From positions 1-40,053 of the forward strand of contig CANFUJ010000007.1 in assembly GCA_947450165.1 (NCBI GenBank): DNA of 40,053 nucleotides, written 5' to 3'. Both the position numbers and the translations under genes were made by a program. The notes under the pieces are model-generated. The model made no database searches. It was given only the letters and a program-made list of their open reading frames with translations, and was not told the origin of the DNA. This DNA comes from Chitinophagaceae bacterium. GTDB lineage: Bacteria; Bacteroidota; Bacteroidia; Chitinophagales; Chitinophagaceae. The stretch's first letter is position 1. The number at the start of each line of letters is the position of its first letter. This document shows positions 15,086 to 31,270 of the stretch, piece by piece.

Positions 15086-16141
15086 TTATAGCTTTACTTC
15101 TATCGCTTTTTCTTTTTGGGCAACAAAAACACCAATAGGTTCAATAAAATTTTCTAACCCATTTTGTTTGAGCAATGCTACTACTTCTTCAAAAGCATTT
15201 GGATTGACGCTAAATAATAAGCCACCATTGGTTTGTGGATCAGGCAATAAATTAAATGCTTCCATCACATTCACCCCTTTTTCAAAACTGGTTTTTGCAG
15301 AATAACTGTTCCAGTTTCTATAAGTTGCATCTGGTACAATTCTTTTTGAAAGATATTCTTTTGCGCCTTCAATAACTGGAATTTTTGAATAAAATAAATC
15401 TATCGACAAATCAGCGCCTTCTGCCATTTCTATACAATGTCCAAGTAAGCCAAAACCTGTAACATCTGTAACAGCAGTAATTCCATCTATTTCAGCTAAT
15501 TTTTCGCCCAATGAATTTAGTGTGGTCATTTGGGAAATCATCTTTGTAAGATGCCCACCTTCAATTACATCTCTTTTTTGTGCGGTGGCTAAAATGCCTA
15601 CTCCTATTGGCTTTGTAATGAATAATAAATCGCCTTCTTTACTCGTGTTGTTTTTTTTGATTTTTGATGTGTCAACAATTCCTGTTACTGCTAATCCAAA
15701 CATCGGTTCTTGTGTGTCAATGGTATGTCCACCAGCCAAGGGTATTCCTGCTTTTGAACAAATATCACGTGCACCATCCAACACTTGACGTGCCAATTCA
15801 GTAGATAGTTTTTCAATTGGCCAACCTAATATAGCCACAGCCATCAATGGCTTTCCGCCCATTGCGTAAACATCACTTATCGCATTTGCTGAAGCAATTT
15901 GTCCAAAATTAAATGCATCATCTACAATAGGCATAAAAAAATCTGTTGTAGATATAATTGATTTACCACCGCCAATATCATAAACTGCCGCATCATCATT
16001 GGTGTTATTGCCCACCAACAAATTTGGGAAATTTATTGATGGCATTTTCGACGAAAGCATTTCTTGCAATACATTTGGTGCAATTTTGCATCCACAACCA
16101 GCCCCTTTTGAAAATTGCGTTAACCTTATTTTTTCTTCCAA
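15086..16141 (-). CDS. selD: Selenide, water dikinase
   Basis: Makes selenophosphate from selenide and ATP, the activated selenium donor. 351 residues. The catalytic loop KGAGCGCKIAP places Cys16 and Lys19 at the positions of E. coli Cys17 and Lys20; both Cys codons are TGT/TGC, so no selenocysteine is used here. Further family motifs are DDAAVYDIGGGKSIISTTDFF, SDVYAMGGKPL, LAGGHTIDTQEP and DVTGFGLLGH. It follows mnmH after 5 nt and is cotranscribed, giving a self-contained unit for tRNA 2-selenouridine. Confidence 0.97.
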   Translation of the reverse strand: MEEKIRLTQFSKGAGCGCKIAPNVLQEMLSSKMPSINFPNLLVGNNTNDDAAVYDIGGGKSIISTTDFFMPIVDDAFNFGQIASANAISDVYAMGGKPLMAVAILGWPIEKLSTELARQVLDGARDICSKAGIPLAGGHTIDTQEPMFGLAVTGIVDTSKIKKNNTSKEGDLLFITKPIGVGILATAQKRDVIEGGHLTKMISQMTTLNSLGEKLAEIDGITAVTDVTGFGLLGHCIEMAEGADLSIDLFYSKIPVIEGAKEYLSKRIVPDATYRNWNSYSAKTSFEKGVNVMEAFNLLPDPQTNGGLLFSVNPNAFEEVVALLKQNGLENFIEPIGVFVAQKEKAIEVKL

Positions 16142-16146
16142 AGTTT

Positions 16147-17196
16147 TTAATTTTTAATTGATGATAAAACCATTTCAGCATTAGTTTTCGGACTAATTTC
16201 TAAAAGTTCGATTTTTTGTAAAAGGTGTTCTACATTTTCACGTTTATGCAACGACGTTATATAGTTTTTGTCGTAATAGTTGAGTAAATTATGAAACGCT
16301 TCTTTAATGTTATTGTCTTCGAAAAGTGCCAATGTAATCTTTGTTTCATTTGGCCCAAAACGTTTTTGAATTCTAATGGTGGCTTCCTTTAAAGCATCTA
16401 TCTCAAGATTGCCATAGGATTGAAGTATAAAGTTCAATCTATTTTCAAAAGGTATATCTATAAAATATAACGGCGATTTTCTAACACTATTCCAAAATGC
16501 ATTGGGAATAATTAAATCGCCAATACGCTGACTCTCATCTTCCACCCAAAAGTAGTTTGTATTGTGTTGTGCATTTTTTTCAGAAATTTTAAGCGCTAAA
16601 ATGTTTTCAAACATTTCTTGAGTAGGTTGCGGCATTTGTCCAATACCACCAAATGCAGATCCCTTATGGTTTGCAATACCTTCTAAATCAATGATGTTTT
16701 CGCCCAATCTTTCCAACTCATGAAGTGTTTCTGTTTTTGCGCTTCCTGTATAACCGCCCAATACTTTTATTTCATAAGGATATTCAAATTGTACCAATAC
16801 CCAATTTCTAAATGCTTTATAACCACCTTCTAATAGATAAACATCATAGCCGTATAAATTAAGCAACCAGGCCACTGCCGCACTACGCATGCCTCCTCGC
16901 CAACAATGCACCAAGATTTTTTTGTTGTTGGGTTGTATCCTATCACACAATTTCTCCACTTCCTCAACCATGCTGCGCATTTTTGTTCCAAAGAAATCAA
17001 GCCCTAATTTAATGGCCATTTCTTTGCTTTGCTTTTTATATGCAGTGCCAACAATCTTTCGCTCTTCATTTGAAAATAACGGTAATGACACCGCGCCAGG
17101 ATAATGCGCATGGTTATATTCTTCAGGACTTCTTACATCAAATACCAAATGATGTTCTGAAAGTGCAATAAAATCAGATACGCTAATTTTTTTCAT
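16147..17196 (-). CDS. mnmH: tRNA 2-selenouridine synthase
   Basis: Replaces sulfur by selenium at position 2 of the wobble uridine in tRNAs for Lys, Glu and Gln, using selenophosphate from SelD. The N-terminal rhodanese domain (about 1-130) carries the catalytic Cys98 in VHCWRGGMRSAA. The C-terminal P-loop domain has GGYTGSAKT at about 147-155 and the family segment LEGIANHKGSAFGGIGQ. 349 residues is the normal size. Known enzymes first geranylate the 2-thiouridine and then exchange it for selenium. With selD directly behind it the substrate supply is local. An ordinary but informative pair: it predicts selenium use in tRNA without needing selenoproteins. Confidence 0.96.
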   Translation of the reverse strand: MKKISVSDFIALSEHHLVFDVRSPEEYNHAHYPGAVSLPLFSNEERKIVGTAYKKQSKEMAIKLGLDFFGTKMRSMVEEVEKLCDRIQPNNKKILVHCWRGGMRSAAVAWLLNLYGYDVYLLEGGYKAFRNWVLVQFEYPYEIKVLGGYTGSAKTETLHELERLGENIIDLEGIANHKGSAFGGIGQMPQPTQEMFENILALKISEKNAQHNTNYFWVEDESQRIGDLIIPNAFWNSVRKSPLYFIDIPFENRLNFILQSYGNLEIDALKEATIRIQKRFGPNETKITLALFEDNNIKEAFHNLLNYYDKNYITSLHKRENVEHLLQKIELLEISPKTNAEMVLSSIKN

Positions 17197-17285: not shown

Positions 17286-18344
17286 TTAGAAAAACTCCCA
17301 AGGATAACGGACATTACAATCACCAGAGTTTCCGGTTGGACAAGGTACGTCTCCCCCTGTTACATTAAAATCTTTTTGAACGCCAAATTCCATACTACCA
17401 AAGGTCGTCTTTATTCCTGGTCTGTAAATGTCCACATCATAATTTAAACCCATCTTTGAAGTGTATGCGCCTTTATCTAATACTGCCATTTTCTTGCCCA
17501 ATTTCCAAGTTACACCTATGCAAAAACTACTGTTGTTGGCTAAGCCAATTGCATTTCTATACCACAATCCAAACTCAATGGGAAAGTCTGCATAATCTAT
17601 AATTACACCAGCGCTAATAACACTTGATTTACCTTGAAACTGTGTAATAATGGTTGGCTTTAATCCAATAACATTGTATTCATTTACGTTACTATAACTT
17701 AAATGCGTGGTTATTTTTTTAGGAAGCTTTGAGTCATCAGGTGTTCCAACAAAACTTGTAGCTGGCTCATTCATATGATGTACAGCAGCACCAATCATAA
17801 AGTTTCTATAGGTAAAAACAAACCCCGAAGAAAAATCAAAATAGTTTTTAGAATTGATGGTTTTAAACAGCTCTACATCTGATGGTAAACCAGTAATGCC
17901 ATTTTGATTGAGCTGATCTATAAAAACAAATTGAGACGGATTTACCCTTGCAAAGTTATACCCTGCCTGTAAAGCAATATTTAAAAACCATTCTTTACAA
18001 CTCACATTTGTACCAAAACTTCTTCCTACAATGCCACTGATATTTGTATTGGAGATGTATCCTTTTGATTGATGATTTACATTAAATCCAAGGTTCAATA
18101 TGTTTCTTCTACTATCATCATAAATGGCGTAATCCATTCCCCCAGAAAAATATTTGTAAGGCTTGTATAAATTAAACCATTGCAATTTTGTTACTGCTGA
18201 TAATCGCAGATAATCTTTACCTGTGCCCGTTAATCCAGGATTAAAGTACATTGGGGTATAGCTAAACTGACTATAAAGCGCATCTTGTGTAAATCCAAAA
18301 TGAAACGTCAATAATACAAATAGGGTTAAAGTAATTTTTTTCAT
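17286..18344 (-). CDS. PorP/SprF-family type IX secretion outer membrane protein
   Basis: A 352-residue beta-barrel protein with a signal peptide (MKKITLTLFVLLTFHFGFT, then QDALYSQF). The opening SQFSYTPMYFNPGLTGTGKD and later FFSSGFVFTYRNFMIG-like blocks are hallmarks of PorP/SprF proteins. SprF is required to display SprB on the cell surface in Flavobacterium johnsoniae, and pairs with cargo proteins that carry a type B C-terminal domain. Here it starts 2 nt after the stop of the giant SprB-like gene, so they form an adhesin-plus-partner operon. It likely captures or anchors that protein at the outer membrane. The specificity is inferred from gene order. Confidence 0.93.
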   Translation of the reverse strand: MKKITLTLFVLLTFHFGFTQDALYSQFSYTPMYFNPGLTGTGKDYLRLSAVTKLQWFNLYKPYKYFSGGMDYAIYDDSRRNILNLGFNVNHQSKGYISNTNISGIVGRSFGTNVSCKEWFLNIALQAGYNFARVNPSQFVFIDQLNQNGITGLPSDVELFKTINSKNYFDFSSGFVFTYRNFMIGAAVHHMNEPATSFVGTPDDSKLPKKITTHLSYSNVNEYNVIGLKPTIITQFQGKSSVISAGVIIDYADFPIEFGLWYRNAIGLANNSSFCIGVTWKLGKKMAVLDKGAYTSKMGLNYDVDIYRPGIKTTFGSMEFGVQKDFNVTGGDVPCPTGNSGDCNVRYPWEFF

Positions 18345-27300: not shown

Positions 27301-29800
27301 AACCTGTTGCTGTAGATGTTCCTGTTAACGTTGTGGTTTGCCCAACACAAACCGACAATGTTCCAGTTACAGTTGGTAATGGATTTACTGTTACAGTTGC
27401 TGAAGCAGGTGTTGAACCGCAGACATTTGTTACAGTTAATCCAATGTTATATGAACCTGAATTGGCATAAGTAATTGTACCAGGGGAGGAAACATTTGAG
27501 GAAGAAGGATTTCCATTTGCAAAAGTCCATGCATAAGTTGTGTTTGCATCAATAAAGCAAGTGCTGGAATTTGTAGGAGTTATTGACTGATTGACGCAAA
27601 TTGTTGAATTGGACAAGCTTATAGAAACCACAGGTTTCCCTTTAACCGTAATGGTATCTTTAAAAATTACTGATTGGCAACGGTTATTCGGAGCTATAGT
27701 TTGTAATGAGATAATATATTGACCTGGACTTACAAATTGAAAATGTGGATTTTGTGAGGTAGAACTTGTATTGTCGATATAACTATAATCTGATGTTGTT
27801 GGTGTACAACTAGGATTAGATAAATATGCAACACTATATTGATAAGTATTTTGTCCGCAAGTGGGAGTGTTTGTTGAACCACTGGCATACACTGATTGGT
27901 TAGGGCAAATGGTATCTCTATTTAATGTAAATGAAGCCTTTGGAAGGGGATTTACACAAATAGTTTTTGTCATAGTATCTGTTCCAGAACATAAAGATGA
28001 GTTGGATGCTAGAAGCTTGATTGTGTATATACCAGCTGAATCAAATCTTACATTAACAGAGTTTGTGCCAGAAACCCAATTGTCAACACCTCCAGGAATA
28101 ACAGATCCTAAATTAAAACCTGATTGTATTTGATATCTAGTTCCTGGAGAAATAGGGGATATTTGCCAAACTATCTTTCCATCTGTACAAGTTTCGGTGG
28201 AAACATCAATACTTTTTCCTGGGTCTCCTATATTTGTTAGTGTAATTGTTTGACCAACACAAATTGAATCATACGGAGTAATTGTAAAGTCGGCTTTTGG
28301 AGATTTAGCAACATAAATTGGAGATACTGCAAATCTCTTAGTACCACAAGGATTTTTTACAGTTAGAAAAGCACCAAATGCGTTAGTAGATACACCCGTC
28401 CCAGTAGTTGTATTTGTACCACAACTAGTAGATGGAAAAGTATGTGTAATTGGATATGGATTTGAAATAGGATGAACTAAAACTACAGAATCGTTTGAAC
28501 CATCATTGAAAGTTACTGTATAAATTGTTCCCGAGGTGTTTGCGTTAGTCCCTGAAATCTGGACAGTATCTTGAGATCCAGAACAAATTACATCCGATAT
28601 ACCAGATCCGAAATTTGCAGCAGGAACACTTCCAACAAAGACTTTGTACTTTGCAGTATCTGAACACGAATTATTGTTCATTATAAAAGTAAGATTATAT
28701 GTACCTACATTATAATTATGTCCAATGGTTATCCCCGAGGTTATTGGCGCAGTAAAAGTTGTTTGGTCATAATTCTGAGATGAGGAAGCATCTCCCCATT
28801 GAATTTGATATGTAGTTGTGCTTGTAAAGTTTTGAGAGTTGTTTAAAAATTGTAATTGTTGGGAGCCTGAAGAGCATATATAAAAATATTGTTCTCCATT
28901 TATGGTGGTTAGTTGCTGTGCAGCAGATGCATTAGCTAACTGTGCATAAGGACTCGTTCCTATCGTCGTCGTTTGCGTAACCGTATCCTTACAACCAAAA
29001 CTATTTGTAACAATCAATCTAATGCTAAACGTTTGTCCACTTGAATTACGAGGAAAATTATTGTTGGTAGTTATTCCAGTTGATGTATTGTTGTAGCCGT
29101 TTGGCCCGCTAAACGTCCATTGATAATTGGTAAATGAACCTCCACTCGTAGTTGATGTAGAAGTGAATTGGTATTTACGTCCGCAATTGGAGGTAAATGT
29201 AAAACTCGCTACTGGCTTGGGGTTTACCACCACTCTCACCGTATCCAAAGTTGAACAAGTAGAAGCACTATCCGCTTTAATCACATAATCAAAAGTACCA
29301 GCAGTTGTGGTAGGAACGGTGTATGTTGCATTTGTTCCCAATGAAGCTGTGCTTCCTAATAAATACCAATTAATAGATGCACTAGACGGAGCAACACTTC
29401 CTGTTAAATTAAATAAACTACCCTGACAAGTACTTTGATTAGATCCTGCATTCACACGAGGACTTGGGTTTACAGTAACTTGTACAGTATCGCTTTCTGT
29501 GCACGCCGTAGCTCCTGATCCACTACTCACTTTTATGATATAATTAAAAACTCCAGATGTAGAAAGTATAGTGTTTATTGTAGAAGTAGTAGAAATTATG
29601 TTTGATGAATTCCCTTGAATAAACCACTGAATGGTAGCTCCTGTGGGAGCTACAACTGCCGTTCTAACAAAAGCTTTATTCTGACAAATTGTAGTATTAT
29701 TCCCTGCAGTTACACTACATTGAGCCATCAACACATTTGGTAATGATAGTGTAAATAAGCAGATTGCTAATTTAAAAATTAGGTTGTTTAATTTTTTCAT
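18347..29800 (-). CDS. Giant SprB-like modular surface adhesin, T9SS C-terminal domain
   Basis: A secreted protein of 3817 residues (about 390 kDa). Signal peptide 1-26 (ends NVLMAQC). Roughly by residue: Ig-like/PKD modules to about 800; a BIG_2-like array to about 1570, each unit with W-S-x-SVATV-GxVT-GTS-ITYTN-GC and a paired Cys; Ig-like modules with SPAGTINVTVN ends to about 2275; five PKD-like repeats (CSGxxFxxxP, then GTxYxW) to about 2750; true PKD domains with WNFGDGTP/WDFGDG motifs to about 3710. The final 100 residues (YLYVPNAFYANSTQIDFKYF to TLTLFR) are a gliding-type CHU_C domain, a type B signal for type IX secretion. SprF-like partner follows after 2 nt. It probably forms a long surface filament for adhesion or gliding. 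No enzymatic domain was seen. Confidence 0.93.
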   Translation of the reverse strand: MKKLNNLIFKLAICLFTLSLPNVLMAQCSVTAGNNTTICQNKAFVRTAVVAPTGATIQWFIQGNSSNIISTTSTINTILSTSGVFNYIIKVSSGSGATACTESDTVQVTVNPSPRVNAGSNQSTCQGSLFNLTGSVAPSSASINWYLLGSTASLGTNATYTVPTTTAGTFDYVIKADSASTCSTLDTVRVVVNPKPVASFTFTSNCGRKYQFTSTSTTSGGSFTNYQWTFSGPNGYNNTSTGITTNNNFPRNSSGQTFSIRLIVTNSFGCKDTVTQTTTIGTSPYAQLANASAAQQLTTINGEQYFYICSSGSQQLQFLNNSQNFTSTTTYQIQWGDASSSQNYDQTTFTAPITSGITIGHNYNVGTYNLTFIMNNNSCSDTAKYKVFVGSVPAANFGSGISDVICSGSQDTVQISGTNANTSGTIYTVTFNDGSNDSVVLVHPISNPYPITHTFPSTSCGTNTTTGTGVSTNAFGAFLTVKNPCGTKRFAVSPIYVAKSPKADFTITPYDSICVGQTITLTNIGDPGKSIDVSTETCTDGKIVWQISPISPGTRYQIQSGFNLGSVIPGGVDNWVSGTNSVNVRFDSAGIYTIKLLASNSSLCSGTDTMTKTICVNPLPKASFTLNRDTICPNQSVYASGSTNTPTCGQNTYQYSVAYLSNPSCTPTTSDYSYIDNTSSTSQNPHFQFVSPGQYIISLQTIAPNNRCQSVIFKDTITVKGKPVVSISLSNSTICVNQSITPTNSSTCFIDANTTYAWTFANGNPSSSNVSSPGTITYANSGSYNIGLTVTNVCGSTPASATVTVNPLPTVTGTLSVCVGQTTTLTGTSTATGSGTWTSSNIGVATVSNTGVVTGVAAGSATITFTDANGCQKGVTVTVNPLPTITGNSAICVGSTLTLSGSATAATTNPWVSATTSVATITNSGLVTAVSSGTSVITYTNSNGCKSDLTFTANPLPTITGDTIICLNNTSQLTGSATAATTNPWVSATTSVATVSTGGLVSTVSVGTSIITYTNTNGCTKKINVIVKPLPVITGSSSICVGSNVSFSATTNPATSTPWSSSNTSVATVNNSGAVVGVAAGTSTITYTNEFGCQATFSVTVSSSPTATISYPSPVCTNQTNQNITFSGATGGTFSISPVGTTGLTLNTSNGSVNPSTSTAGTYTVNYNIPAGNGCSAVDVSTTITITNTPSGPTVTSPVVYCQNVTASALTATGTGSNSLLYYTTSTGGTGVTSLIPSTTTAGSTTYYVSQSTSNGCEGPRTSITVTVNPLPTITGNSAICVGSTLTLTGSATAATSNPWVSATTSVATVTNSGVVTAVSSGTSVITYTNSNGCKSDVTFTANPLPTITGDTIICLNNTSQLTGSATAATINPWVSATTSVATISTGGLVSTVSVGTSIITYTNTNGCTKKVNVIVKPLPVITGSSSICVGSNVSFSATTNPATSTPWSSSNTSVATVNNSGAVVGVAAGTSTITYTNEFGCQATFSVTVSSSPTATISYPSTICTNQTNQSVTLTGATGGTFSISPVGTTGLTLNTSNGSVNPSTSTAGTYTVNYNIPAGNGCPAVNIDTNITITTTPSAPVPSGNNICSGNTLQLNTSYTGSGTPTWNWTGPNGFSSSDEDPSISNVTVAATGTYSVTVTINSCTSPAGTINVTVNQTPATPTASSNTPVCTGNALTLNASTTSTMPVTWSWSGPNSFTSTSQNPQVSANATTAMDGTYDVYATATYNASSLSCSSATASTIVVINATPVISSSSSTNPSNCASSTGSITLNGLNASTSYTVHYTNSAGAQTSTLTSSSTGVITISSLPAGTYSNVYVVLINCPSTSVGPFSLVDPTPPVTPVIQSVNPLCSGNTINLSASTTSTGTATWSWTGPNSFTSSDQNPTITNATTLATGTYSVTVTINSCTSPAGTINVTVNQTPATPTASSNTPVCTGNALTLTASTTSTMPVTWSWSGPNSFTSTSQNPQVSANATTAMDGTYEVYAIATYTTSTTLNCPSATASTIVVINATPVISSSSSINPSSCASSTGSISLNGLNASTSYTVHYTNSAGAQTSTITSNLTGVITIPLLPAGTYSNVYVVLTNCPSAPVGPFNLVDPTPPPVPTVTNNGAICDGELLQLNATTTSTGNATWNWTGPNGFTSTNYNPSINAAGLNANGVYSVTVTISNCTSQAGTTTVIVNPRPLAPVAPSPVVYCQYDVPVALTATALPGHTLNWYTSLTGGTASATAPTPSTSTTSPISYFVSQTTPAHCEGLRTQIDVIVNPTPVVSGQLQTICSGASFLISPSGTSSVPSNTLYSWGLPVVTGGLTGGATGTNQSNITGTLFNPTDFVQTATYTVSSISGSCPGNTFTVVISVNPAPRIVFSLPNQSICSGNISQAVTLTSPTPNAIIPWTSVQPLGISGVTLSGSGTIPTQTLINTTPNPITVTYTATASTTGTSACPGTPTPYQIVVTPTPVIPNTTETICSGEFFNVQPVNNTNTIVPSGTTYTWTVSNNSNITGQSSQSIPQTSIADTLTNISNVPQTIVYTVKPRSGIADSCIGQLFTITVTVNPKPVIPTLTQTVCSGIGFLLNPANGQPNANTIVPNATVYNWSAPTLTVGMSGAASGTNQSTISGTLYNTTFAPITVTYVVTPISGAAGSCPGLPFNVDITVNPLASISNNPLSQSVCNGNTTTSVNWSSFTAGATYAWTLVSFGNVTGYLPAGNGPTLGAMTLSNNGIAQDSVVYAVSSTASACAGPATNYTIYVNPDANADFRWPYDTACWPYSIVINNTSQLSPGNVNIPNSSYNWYNINQLGIETFIGAGSVFPGYIIQGPSDSIKIKMVSISAFGCKNDSLTHTFYTKPKPTAAFTMSNRDSCGPLTISFVNQTNIRDTFRYQWNFGNGQTSTATNPGPVTYVSNPRFFDTTYYITLRAFNECDTTTYLDSVIVRADPKARFAVSSSSGCSPFTIQVTNSSLGNPHTYYWDFGDGTPIQTTTTLGTLTHTYYTGIVDTFELKLVAISACGRDSQIIKIRVAPNVIHPGVSVNATELYGCVSHSVNFINTSTGATNFTWNFGDGTPLQTTNFFQTIVNHTYNTAGNFNIQINMTNGCSDTSINTSITVYPRPTAAFTTSQTVYCFGDTTRFINNSINATNYIWSFGNGIFNTNFQPNYMYLNPGVYNVQLEAQQSNATGLVCFDTITRSITILSKPDTAIITNINPVNCSPFIITGSVPGYTTESITWYVYDTTLPVYPVVISNPILNYTFNHSGRFKVVMVIENASGCKDSSFRFLSVYAKPVATFTPLNLTTCSLDTLVSYINNTTANIYTPLTYRWYVDGIQRATSGNFTYRYTALPTDILPRIFNTKLVATNSVGCADSTTGALQISPTAKSIFNLSNPQACIPFVAAINNSSTYATNYQWYLNGVLVSINENPNINITTANTSYTVTLIVSNIYACRPDTSSFTFRSRVMPIAAFSFNNTLGCSGQLAVVTTNTSQHANAYTWEWGDATANSTINNPTHLFSSVGVYNTLLTASDGVCTDTISHSVVVSQKPTANFIANNVKNCDTSGVRFINLTANATSFLWTVSNGYTTTETSPTIILNPSATPYSVTLLAINADGCRDSLTRANYIKVYALPQGDFTITPSPTIYIPNYTFGFLNLTPDYPIYKYNWSLGDGSFAITRDVVSHLYSDTGNYEVRLTVLDTTTSCVDTVIKYARIIGYPGYLYVPNAFYANSTQIDFKYFKPLGKGLAEYELLIFDSWGKLLFRTTKLDYAGSPVEGWDGTFKGAPMPQDAYAWKIKARFRNGKVWEGMNYDKSQQGQPAHSFGTLTLFR
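23225..25060 (-). repeat. In-frame 789-bp (263-aa) tandem duplication in the giant gene
   Basis: The segment TPATPTASSNTPVCTGNAL and the surrounding Ig-like modules recur with a period of exactly 789 nt (compare the GTGTATTTGATGATGCAG matches at 24001 and 24790). About two full copies and a third, more diverged partial copy are visible, all in frame. Copy edges are approximate. Confidence 0.85.
25070..27177 (-). repeat. In-frame 1167-bp (389-aa) tandem duplication in the giant gene
   Basis: A block of five modules (three BIG_2-like, two others) is present 1.8 times with a period of 1167 nt. The near identity is seen from antisense shadow ORFs at 25380-25721 and 26547-26888, which differ at 3 of 113 positions. 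The period is a multiple of three, so the frame is kept. Confidence 0.9.
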
Positions 29801-29903
29801 ATATTATTTAGAGAAGTCTTTTTTATACTATTATTATTAATTATTTCGATTTATAACCCATCTTTTAAAAAATCGACAAATTATACGTTCATAAAAACTT
29901 ATG

Positions 29904-29912
29904 CCCCCCCCC
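29904..29912 (-). repeat. Homopolymeric (G)9 tract in the leader of the giant gene
   Basis: Nine C on the plus strand, hence nine G on the coding strand, in otherwise A+T-rich DNA. It lies 104 nt before the start codon and about 70 nt after the predicted transcription start. Such tracts are classic sites of slipped-strand length change. Confidence 0.9.
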
Positions 29913-29983
29913 TTTCACATTAAACATTTTTTGAAAAACTATAGACTGATAGGATACTTAAAAACCTGTGAATAAAATGTTGG

Positions 29984-30014
29984 CAAATTTATAGGTTTAT
30001 TGCTTACAACCAAA
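29984..30014 (-). promoter_or_regulatory. Putative promoter of the giant adhesin operon
   Basis: Read on the minus strand: TTTG at 30014-30011, a 19-bp spacer, then TAAATTTG at 29991-29984, an exact match to the Bacteroidota -33/-7 consensus. The start of transcription would lie near 29977, giving a leader of about 177 nt that includes the G tract. This is the best promoter match found beside the one for ppiD. Confidence 0.6.
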
Positions 30015-30052
30015 GAAAAATTGAGAATATTTTATAATATATTCTATTTTTA

Positions 30053-31270
30053 CTAATTAGTCCAGGCCAGCTTCAGCATTAAATAAGAGGGGCGAAATTG
30101 AGTGGTATACCATCCTCCGGTTTGAACAATCTTCACCAAACCAAACCATTCTTCCACATCATTTGCATCTTGTGTGTACGAGTCCTGTAAATCGTATTTC
30201 CACCATGAATCCAAATACTCATGCACACATGCTCCTGCTATAGGTAAATTGGTGGTTCGTAAATCTTGTACATTAGTCAATAACCCCGAAGACTGCTCCT
30301 GCTCTGTATTTCCACCATATCCATAATTTGGCGCTCCTACGTGATTTGCATTTGGCGATACACTCAATCCCATCTCCGTTAATAATAATGGCATCGCAGG
30401 ATAACGCCCCTTCAACTCCTCTACCCAACCCTGAAACAACGATCCCGTTCCACTGCCAACTTGCGTTTGTGGTCGATATTCTGGTACCGAATAAGAATAC
30501 ACGTTATGACACCTGAAATCCAAAAACTCCGTATCTATCATATCCGCCGTTCTGATGTCGTTCGAATAAGACACCAACGACATCCTTCCATAATTTATAT
30601 ATTCATATTGCTTTACATAATCGGCCATTTCTGCAATAAATGCTTCCGTTGCATTAATGTTTCCATTTGTAAATACATATTCGCCCGAATAACTATTGAT
30701 ATTTGGATGTGCCAAATTGGTACTTCTTATACTCGATGCACTCAATTCGTTTCCTACTAAATACGCAATTATGGGCGGATTTTTATTGGTATAAACAGAA
30801 TATATCCTGTCTATTACCGATCTAATATAGGTTTTGGTATTTACTTTAAAGGTTGGATCCTGAAAATCTACCTGATCTCCATTTATCCAAATGGTTTGCA
30901 ATATGGATAAACCACCTATCGACTTAATCGACTCGTAACATTTTTTTGGCGCACCCCATAATCGGACCGTATTGGCGCCCATAGCTTTAATATTAATCAT
31001 ATCCTGATTAATGCTATTTGAAAAATTCAACGGCAGATTGGTATTTTGTTCTGTTTCCCACGGCAGTGTTCCCGGATAACCTGGTACATACACCACACCT
31101 TTTATCTCAAATGGAATGTCGTTTTTTAAAATAAAATGATTGTTTACCGTGTAATTATCCACTTTTGGAACAATTGGTACTACAACATTAGAAGTTGATT
31201 TTTCTTTGGTACATGAACACAACATCATTAATGCAACAATACAAACATTAATGAAATATCGAAAAAACAT
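30053..31270 (-). CDS. Lipoprotein, glycoside-hydrolase clan A-like TIM barrel
   Basis: A 405-residue secreted lipoprotein. The signal peptide ends LMMLCSC-T with Cys20 as the likely lipidated residue; a Cys/Lys/Ser-rich linker follows. The body resembles the (beta/alpha)8 domain of GH5/GH2-type retaining glycosidases: IKAMGANTVRLWG (about 95-106), the acid/base candidate Glu175 in VGNELS and the nucleophile candidate Glu299 in LLTEMG, plus aromatic-rich VHEYLDSWWKYD near the end. Exact family and substrate are not determinable by eye; mannan or beta-glucan are possibilities only. It stands apart from the giant adhesin, whose start lies 252 nt past the end of this gene, with no shared operon. 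Confidence 0.72.
   Translation of the reverse strand: MFFRYFINVCIVALMMLCSCTKEKSTSNVVVPIVPKVDNYTVNNHFILKNDIPFEIKGVVYVPGYPGTLPWETEQNTNLPLNFSNSINQDMINIKAMGANTVRLWGAPKKCYESIKSIGGLSILQTIWINGDQVDFQDPTFKVNTKTYIRSVIDRIYSVYTNKNPPIIAYLVGNELSASSIRSTNLAHPNINSYSGEYVFTNGNINATEAFIAEMADYVKQYEYINYGRMSLVSYSNDIRTADMIDTEFLDFRCHNVYSYSVPEYRPQTQVGSGTGSLFQGWVEELKGRYPAMPLLLTEMGLSVSPNANHVGAPNYGYGGNTEQEQSSGLLTNVQDLRTTNLPIAGACVHEYLDSWWKYDLQDSYTQDANDVEEWFGLVKIVQTGGWYTTQFRPSYLMLKLAWTN

Follow-up and report, generated by a model that had tools for sequence, protein, structure and literature searches.

The analysed window, a 40,053-nt stretch of DNA corresponding to contig C7, derives from the genome of an uncultivated environmental Bacteroidota bacterium, whose assembly comprises 2.63 Mb in 237 contigs, is 97% complete and has a G+C content of about 0.34. 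The window contains a giant adhesin-like gene of 11.45 kb, a PorP/SprF-family gene immediately downstream of it, and a homopolymer of nine G (the G9 tract) in the spacer upstream of it (Table 1). The giant protein begins with a signal peptide (MKKLNNLIFKLAICLFTLSLPNVLMAQ) and contains PKD, PKD_4, PKD_5, Ig_7 and Big_2 domains, together with a match to the T9SS type B sorting domain (TIGR04131) of 25.6 bits (E 1e-5), which is below the 35-bit cut-off. With its signal peptide, repeated PKD/Ig domains and adjacent PorP/SprF gene, the pair has the composition of a T9SS giant adhesin-sprF operon. The selD and mnmH genes (selenide water dikinase and tRNA 2-selenouridine synthase; 15086-17196, minus strand) are located directly 3' of the pair, and the ORF on the other side of the spacer (30053-31270, minus strand) gave no family match. 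The middle of the giant protein contains long near-identical internal repeats, such as the LPTITGNSAICVGSTLTL...NPWVSATTSVAT blocks. These repeats could recombine and alter the repeat number, and they are a likelier source of variation for the giant protein than the G9 tract.

Table 1. Features of the adhesin locus and poly-C lipoprotein loci of the same genus
Feature	Position	Strand	Remarks
PorP/SprF-family T9SS membrane protein gene	17286..18344	-	two nucleotides downstream of the giant gene
Giant adhesin-like gene, 3817 aa	18347..29800	-	signal peptide, PKD/Ig_7/Big_2 domains, weak T9SS type B sorting domain
Intergenic spacer/leader with the G9 tract	29801..30052	-	252 nt
P2, weak candidate -7 box TAATTTGT	29876..29883	-	fits TAnnTTGY (SM5 of F. 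psychrophilum); sequence match, may be chance
G9 homopolymer (C9 on the plus strand)	29904..29912	-	read directly from the sequence
P1, predicted sigma-A-type promoter TTTG-N19-TAAATTTG	29984..30014	-	exact match; prediction; start expected near 29979
Twelve poly-C lipoprotein loci	L056, L057, L071, L077, L083, L084, L095, L096, L111, L112, L129, L160		same genus

The spacer is bounded by the stop codon of the upstream ORF and the giant ATG at 29800, and the tract, which reads ...CTTATG-CCCCCCCCC-TTTCAC... on the plus strand, lies 104 nt from this ATG. It is the only G/C run of at least nine in the 2.63-Mb assembly, where the next longest are one run of eight and two runs of seven. In 422 kb of the same genome, G/C runs of lengths 4, 5 and 6 occur 501, 74 and 7 times, respectively, and extrapolation of this decay gives an expected 0.04–0.16 runs of at least nine per genome and 0.0006–0.0025 per 40-kb window. 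The G9 run is real and rare for the window, and it is merely mildly surprising genome-wide, because it was chosen as the most striking homopolymer of the genome. The preliminary description had reported a nine-G run, rare in such A+T-rich DNA, ahead of a giant surface protein, and both points are borne out, by the exact position and uniqueness of the run on the one hand and by the signal peptide, PKD/Ig domains and adjoining PorP/SprF gene on the other. With nine G, the tract belongs among the slippable homopolymers (at least 7 G/C) that characterize contingency loci.

Two putative promoters were recognized in the spacer, with both start sites predicted from the sequence. The box of P1, TAnnTTTG, is the Bacteroidota sigma-A -7 box according to the Flavobacterium psychrophilum study (PMC9723704), and it is enriched upstream of genes in the present genome, with 70 matches, whereas the reverse strand gives 43 and shuffled sequence 27. 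An mRNA starting at P1 would have a leader of ~180 nt, with the tract at about +68 to +76. This leader is long in comparison to the median box-to-ATG distance of 27 nt in this genome and to the median 5' UTR of 24 bp given for F. psychrophilum (PMC9723704). P2, with a start expected near 29871, would instead place the tract at -41 to -33 and yield a leader of 71 nt. An in-frame TAA lies six bases 5' of the giant ATG (-6); therefore, slippage in the tract cannot alter the reading frame of the giant gene, and a frameshift fusion to it is ruled out. The tract thus lies between a predicted promoter and the ATG and would have to act without changing the frame, as had been proposed before. Several other candidate features were rejected. 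The ATG directly before C9 on the plus strand opens at most ~24 codons without a signal peptide, excluding the tract as the start of a plus-strand gene; a search against Rfam found no element in the window, and no terminator was found either; and reading the sequence by eye showed no sigma-54 element (GG-N10-GC) that ends at the tract. Loss of mismatch repair was likewise dismissed, with MutS intact in this genome; of MutL only a C-terminal fragment was seen (C101:7-210), which is uninformative because the contig end cuts it.

Comparison with relatives was used to evaluate the conservation of the tract. Within the genus, and also in named genomes, there are proteins with a related N-terminus; the best match in the genus reaches 55% identity across the first 300 aa. 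No G/C run of at least six was observed near the start in those orthologous leaders that were readable, several matches being partial or uncertain in their start. Retention of a tract at the orthologous place, a supporting though not strictly defining feature of contingency loci, was thus not seen in the readable leaders. Across the genus, 66 of the 93 genomes searched contain at least one G/C tract of nine or more, and 139 distinct tracts of this size were classified among those listed (a few listed ones were omitted), with lengths reaching 17. Among these, 78 of 139 are intergenic, while intergenic bases account for 11% of a sample of the present genome and 16% of the tract-bearing loci, an excess as expected if coding DNA purges frameshift-prone runs. 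The intergenic tracts listed are distributed as the spacer bases are (codirectional, 0.58 versus 0.60; divergent, 0.26 versus 0.24; convergent, 0.17 versus 0.16), with no preference for promoter-bearing divergent or codirectional spacers. Genes within 400 nt downstream of a listed tract appeared exported in 19 of 65 cases, compared with 94 of 321 neighbouring controls (p=1.0), where both the export predictor and the ORF calls are simple, crude custom scripts, so that a modest enrichment could be missed. Because the intergenic tracts of the genus are placed as expected from intergenic length, finding a rare homopolymer next to a surface gene carries little weight by itself. Two listed intergenic tracts precede genes whose exported products carry a C-terminal T9SS sorting domain (Por_Secre_tail), at 198 nt upstream of the gene in L094 (425-2803, minus strand) and 66 nt upstream of that in L171 (1754-2956, minus strand), the domain match in L171 being below cut-off.

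A rheostat at the promoter or leader level, in which slippage of G9 tunes the expression of the giant T9SS adhesin, would, if real, extend Helicobacter-style homopolymer control to T9SS surface proteins, in this case to an adhesin of an environmental Bacteroidota; we regard it as unlikely. In its promoter form, P2 would transcribe the operon, and slippage would shift upstream contacts in distance or helical phase relative to the core promoter, as for the T-tract of Helicobacter pylori sabA, which likewise lies beside a -35 element. The predicted location of the tract relative to the P2 start is consistent with this mechanism, the 71-nt leader is closer to the usual short leaders than that from P1, and the TAnnTTGY (SM5) box is one of two mutagenesis-confirmed motifs upstream of the F. 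psychrophilum sprB-sprF operon (PMC9723704). However, we estimate that about one in four leaders of this length would have a TAnnTTGY match by chance, the enrichment of the box in this genome is slight (43 versus 30 on the reverse strand), and the tract is not conserved in the readable orthologous leaders, which makes promoter tuning a quite improbable explanation. Tuning within the mRNA is somewhat less probable still. In this case, the strong predicted P1 would put the tract inside the transcribed leader, and its length would affect translation or stability through folding or a C/U-rich small RNA, comparable to the gradual control that the G-repeat of the H. pylori tlpB leader exerts through RepG. 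When the P1 leader was folded with 6 to 13 G, the region around the ATG stayed similarly unpaired (mean probability 0.62 falling to 0.57), so that predicted start accessibility is nearly constant, which argues against the earlier idea that the tract acts through leader structure or translation initiation. A RepG-like C/U-rich partner was not found in the two places examined, namely the Rfam families of the window, of which there are none, and the next-longest C run of the genome, a C8 at C1:38491, whose surrounding sequence folds no more stably than shuffled versions. Nor would the G-rich run be expected to serve as a ribosome site, because Bacteroidota are described as rarely using Shine-Dalgarno pairing.

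Two further possibilities concern translation upstream of the giant gene and the accuracy of the tract itself. A short ORF, MFNVKGGGHKFL, spans the tract, and computation of its stop for each tract length indicated that, with one G lost, the distance between the stop and the giant ATG would shrink from 91 nt to 39 nt, a movement that might change downstream translation. Such short ORFs are, however, common by chance in DNA of this kind, nothing indicates that this one is used or conserved, and the giant ATG is not reached in any of the frames; a switch of this type is extremely unlikely. The true run might also be shorter than assembled, given that homopolymer lengths are generally error-prone and that the assembly is fragmented into 237 contigs, but the tract is internal to a 40-kb contig and flanked by open genes, and the other G/C runs of the assembly are short, leaving a miscalled length very improbable.

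We prefer the reading, with a probability of roughly 0.6, that G9 is tolerated in the untranslated leader of this T9SS giant adhesin-sprF operon and that the homopolymer is effectively neutral. The tract may occasionally gain or lose a base, because nine G are long enough to slip, and we infer that expression would respond little or not at all to such changes, so that G9 would not be a maintained ON/OFF or rheostat element. The preliminary description had put forward the tract as a candidate for phase variation. Its anatomy stands, with a unique G9, a leader position, a T9SS-type giant adhesin and no effect on the frame, whereas the functional step has gained no positive support: the tract is missing from the readable orthologous leaders, and the genus tracts listed follow intergenic length and favour neither promoter-bearing spacers nor exported genes. 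Judged from sequence, phase variation at the tract is neither demonstrated nor favoured. Against the neutral reading, the longest G/C run of the genome precedes a giant surface gene, tracts listed in the genus are up to 17 long, and relatives appear to use phase-variable poly-C in lipoprotein signal peptides. Phase variation in the Bacteroidota phylum is known mainly through DNA inversions. A partial selection of the literature contained no description of poly-G control of a Bacteroidota T9SS adhesin.

Inspection of the same genus tracts revealed a distinct arrangement on the poly-C strand. Among the tracts listed, 14 poly-C tracts have an ATG within 33 nt upstream and then a hydrophobic, signal-peptide-like stretch, compared with one on the poly-G strand. 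Twelve of these 14, with C9–C15, lead into a lipobox (CKK, CRK, CNK and similar), the poly-C being located a few codons after the ATG within the part of the lipoprotein gene that encodes the signal peptide (loci in Table 1). As assembled, the ATG is in frame with the lipoprotein in none of these 12 listed cases, where one third would be expected by chance. The lipoproteins behind the tracts are divergent: those in L056, L071, L077, L084, L090, L096, L111 and L129 share the lipobox and N-terminal region, several of them with a Gly-rich linker, and they differ C-terminally, with DUF6973 in L090 and a weak SprT-like match in L096. Anatomically, this looks like a translational phase switch that the assemblies have caught in the OFF state, with in-frame rescue by slippage or use of another start codon as a possible alternative to a true OFF state. 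A single query for the family in the present genome gave no match, an empty answer of little weight, and the pattern ATGA-N(6-14)-C9 over 299 genomes of the order matched mostly at unrelated sites and failed to delimit the lipoprotein family. Poly-C in lipoprotein signal peptides is a stronger lead for phase variation than the G9 tract, and these tracts are the better place to seek it in this lineage.

The G9 tract and its operon can be compared with four known systems. In H. pylori, the G-repeat of the tlpB leader is under the control of the RepG sRNA, with 6-16 G tested (PMC8295292). Both are G homopolymers of similar length within the mRNA leader of a gene related to the surface; for tlpB, a pairing sRNA and strain-to-strain differences in length were shown, whereas the present tract comes from one genome in which no sRNA partner was found in the places examined. 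The sabA T-tract of H. pylori acts as a rheostat, is 5-28 long, varies between strains and lies beside the -35 element (PMC4081817). If P2 is real, G9 would similarly be intergenic and close to the -35 region of an adhesin promoter, although it consists of G rather than T and is represented by one genome and a candidate promoter. Campylobacter jejuni NCTC11168 contains 29 poly-G/poly-C tracts of at least seven, mostly intragenic and a few intergenic (PMC4965091), while the present genome has four and its G9 is non-coding; the two share G/C homopolymers of at least seven in an A+T-rich genome, some of them intergenic in C. jejuni as well. The F. psychrophilum remFG-sprCDBF operon, with its SM4 and SM5 promoters, differs in that no homopolymer control is described in the available part of that study (PMC9723704), and P2 is here a sequence match, with no sigma-54 element at the tract. 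Both operons nevertheless combine a giant T9SS adhesin gene with an SprF-family partner and have an SM5-type box upstream.
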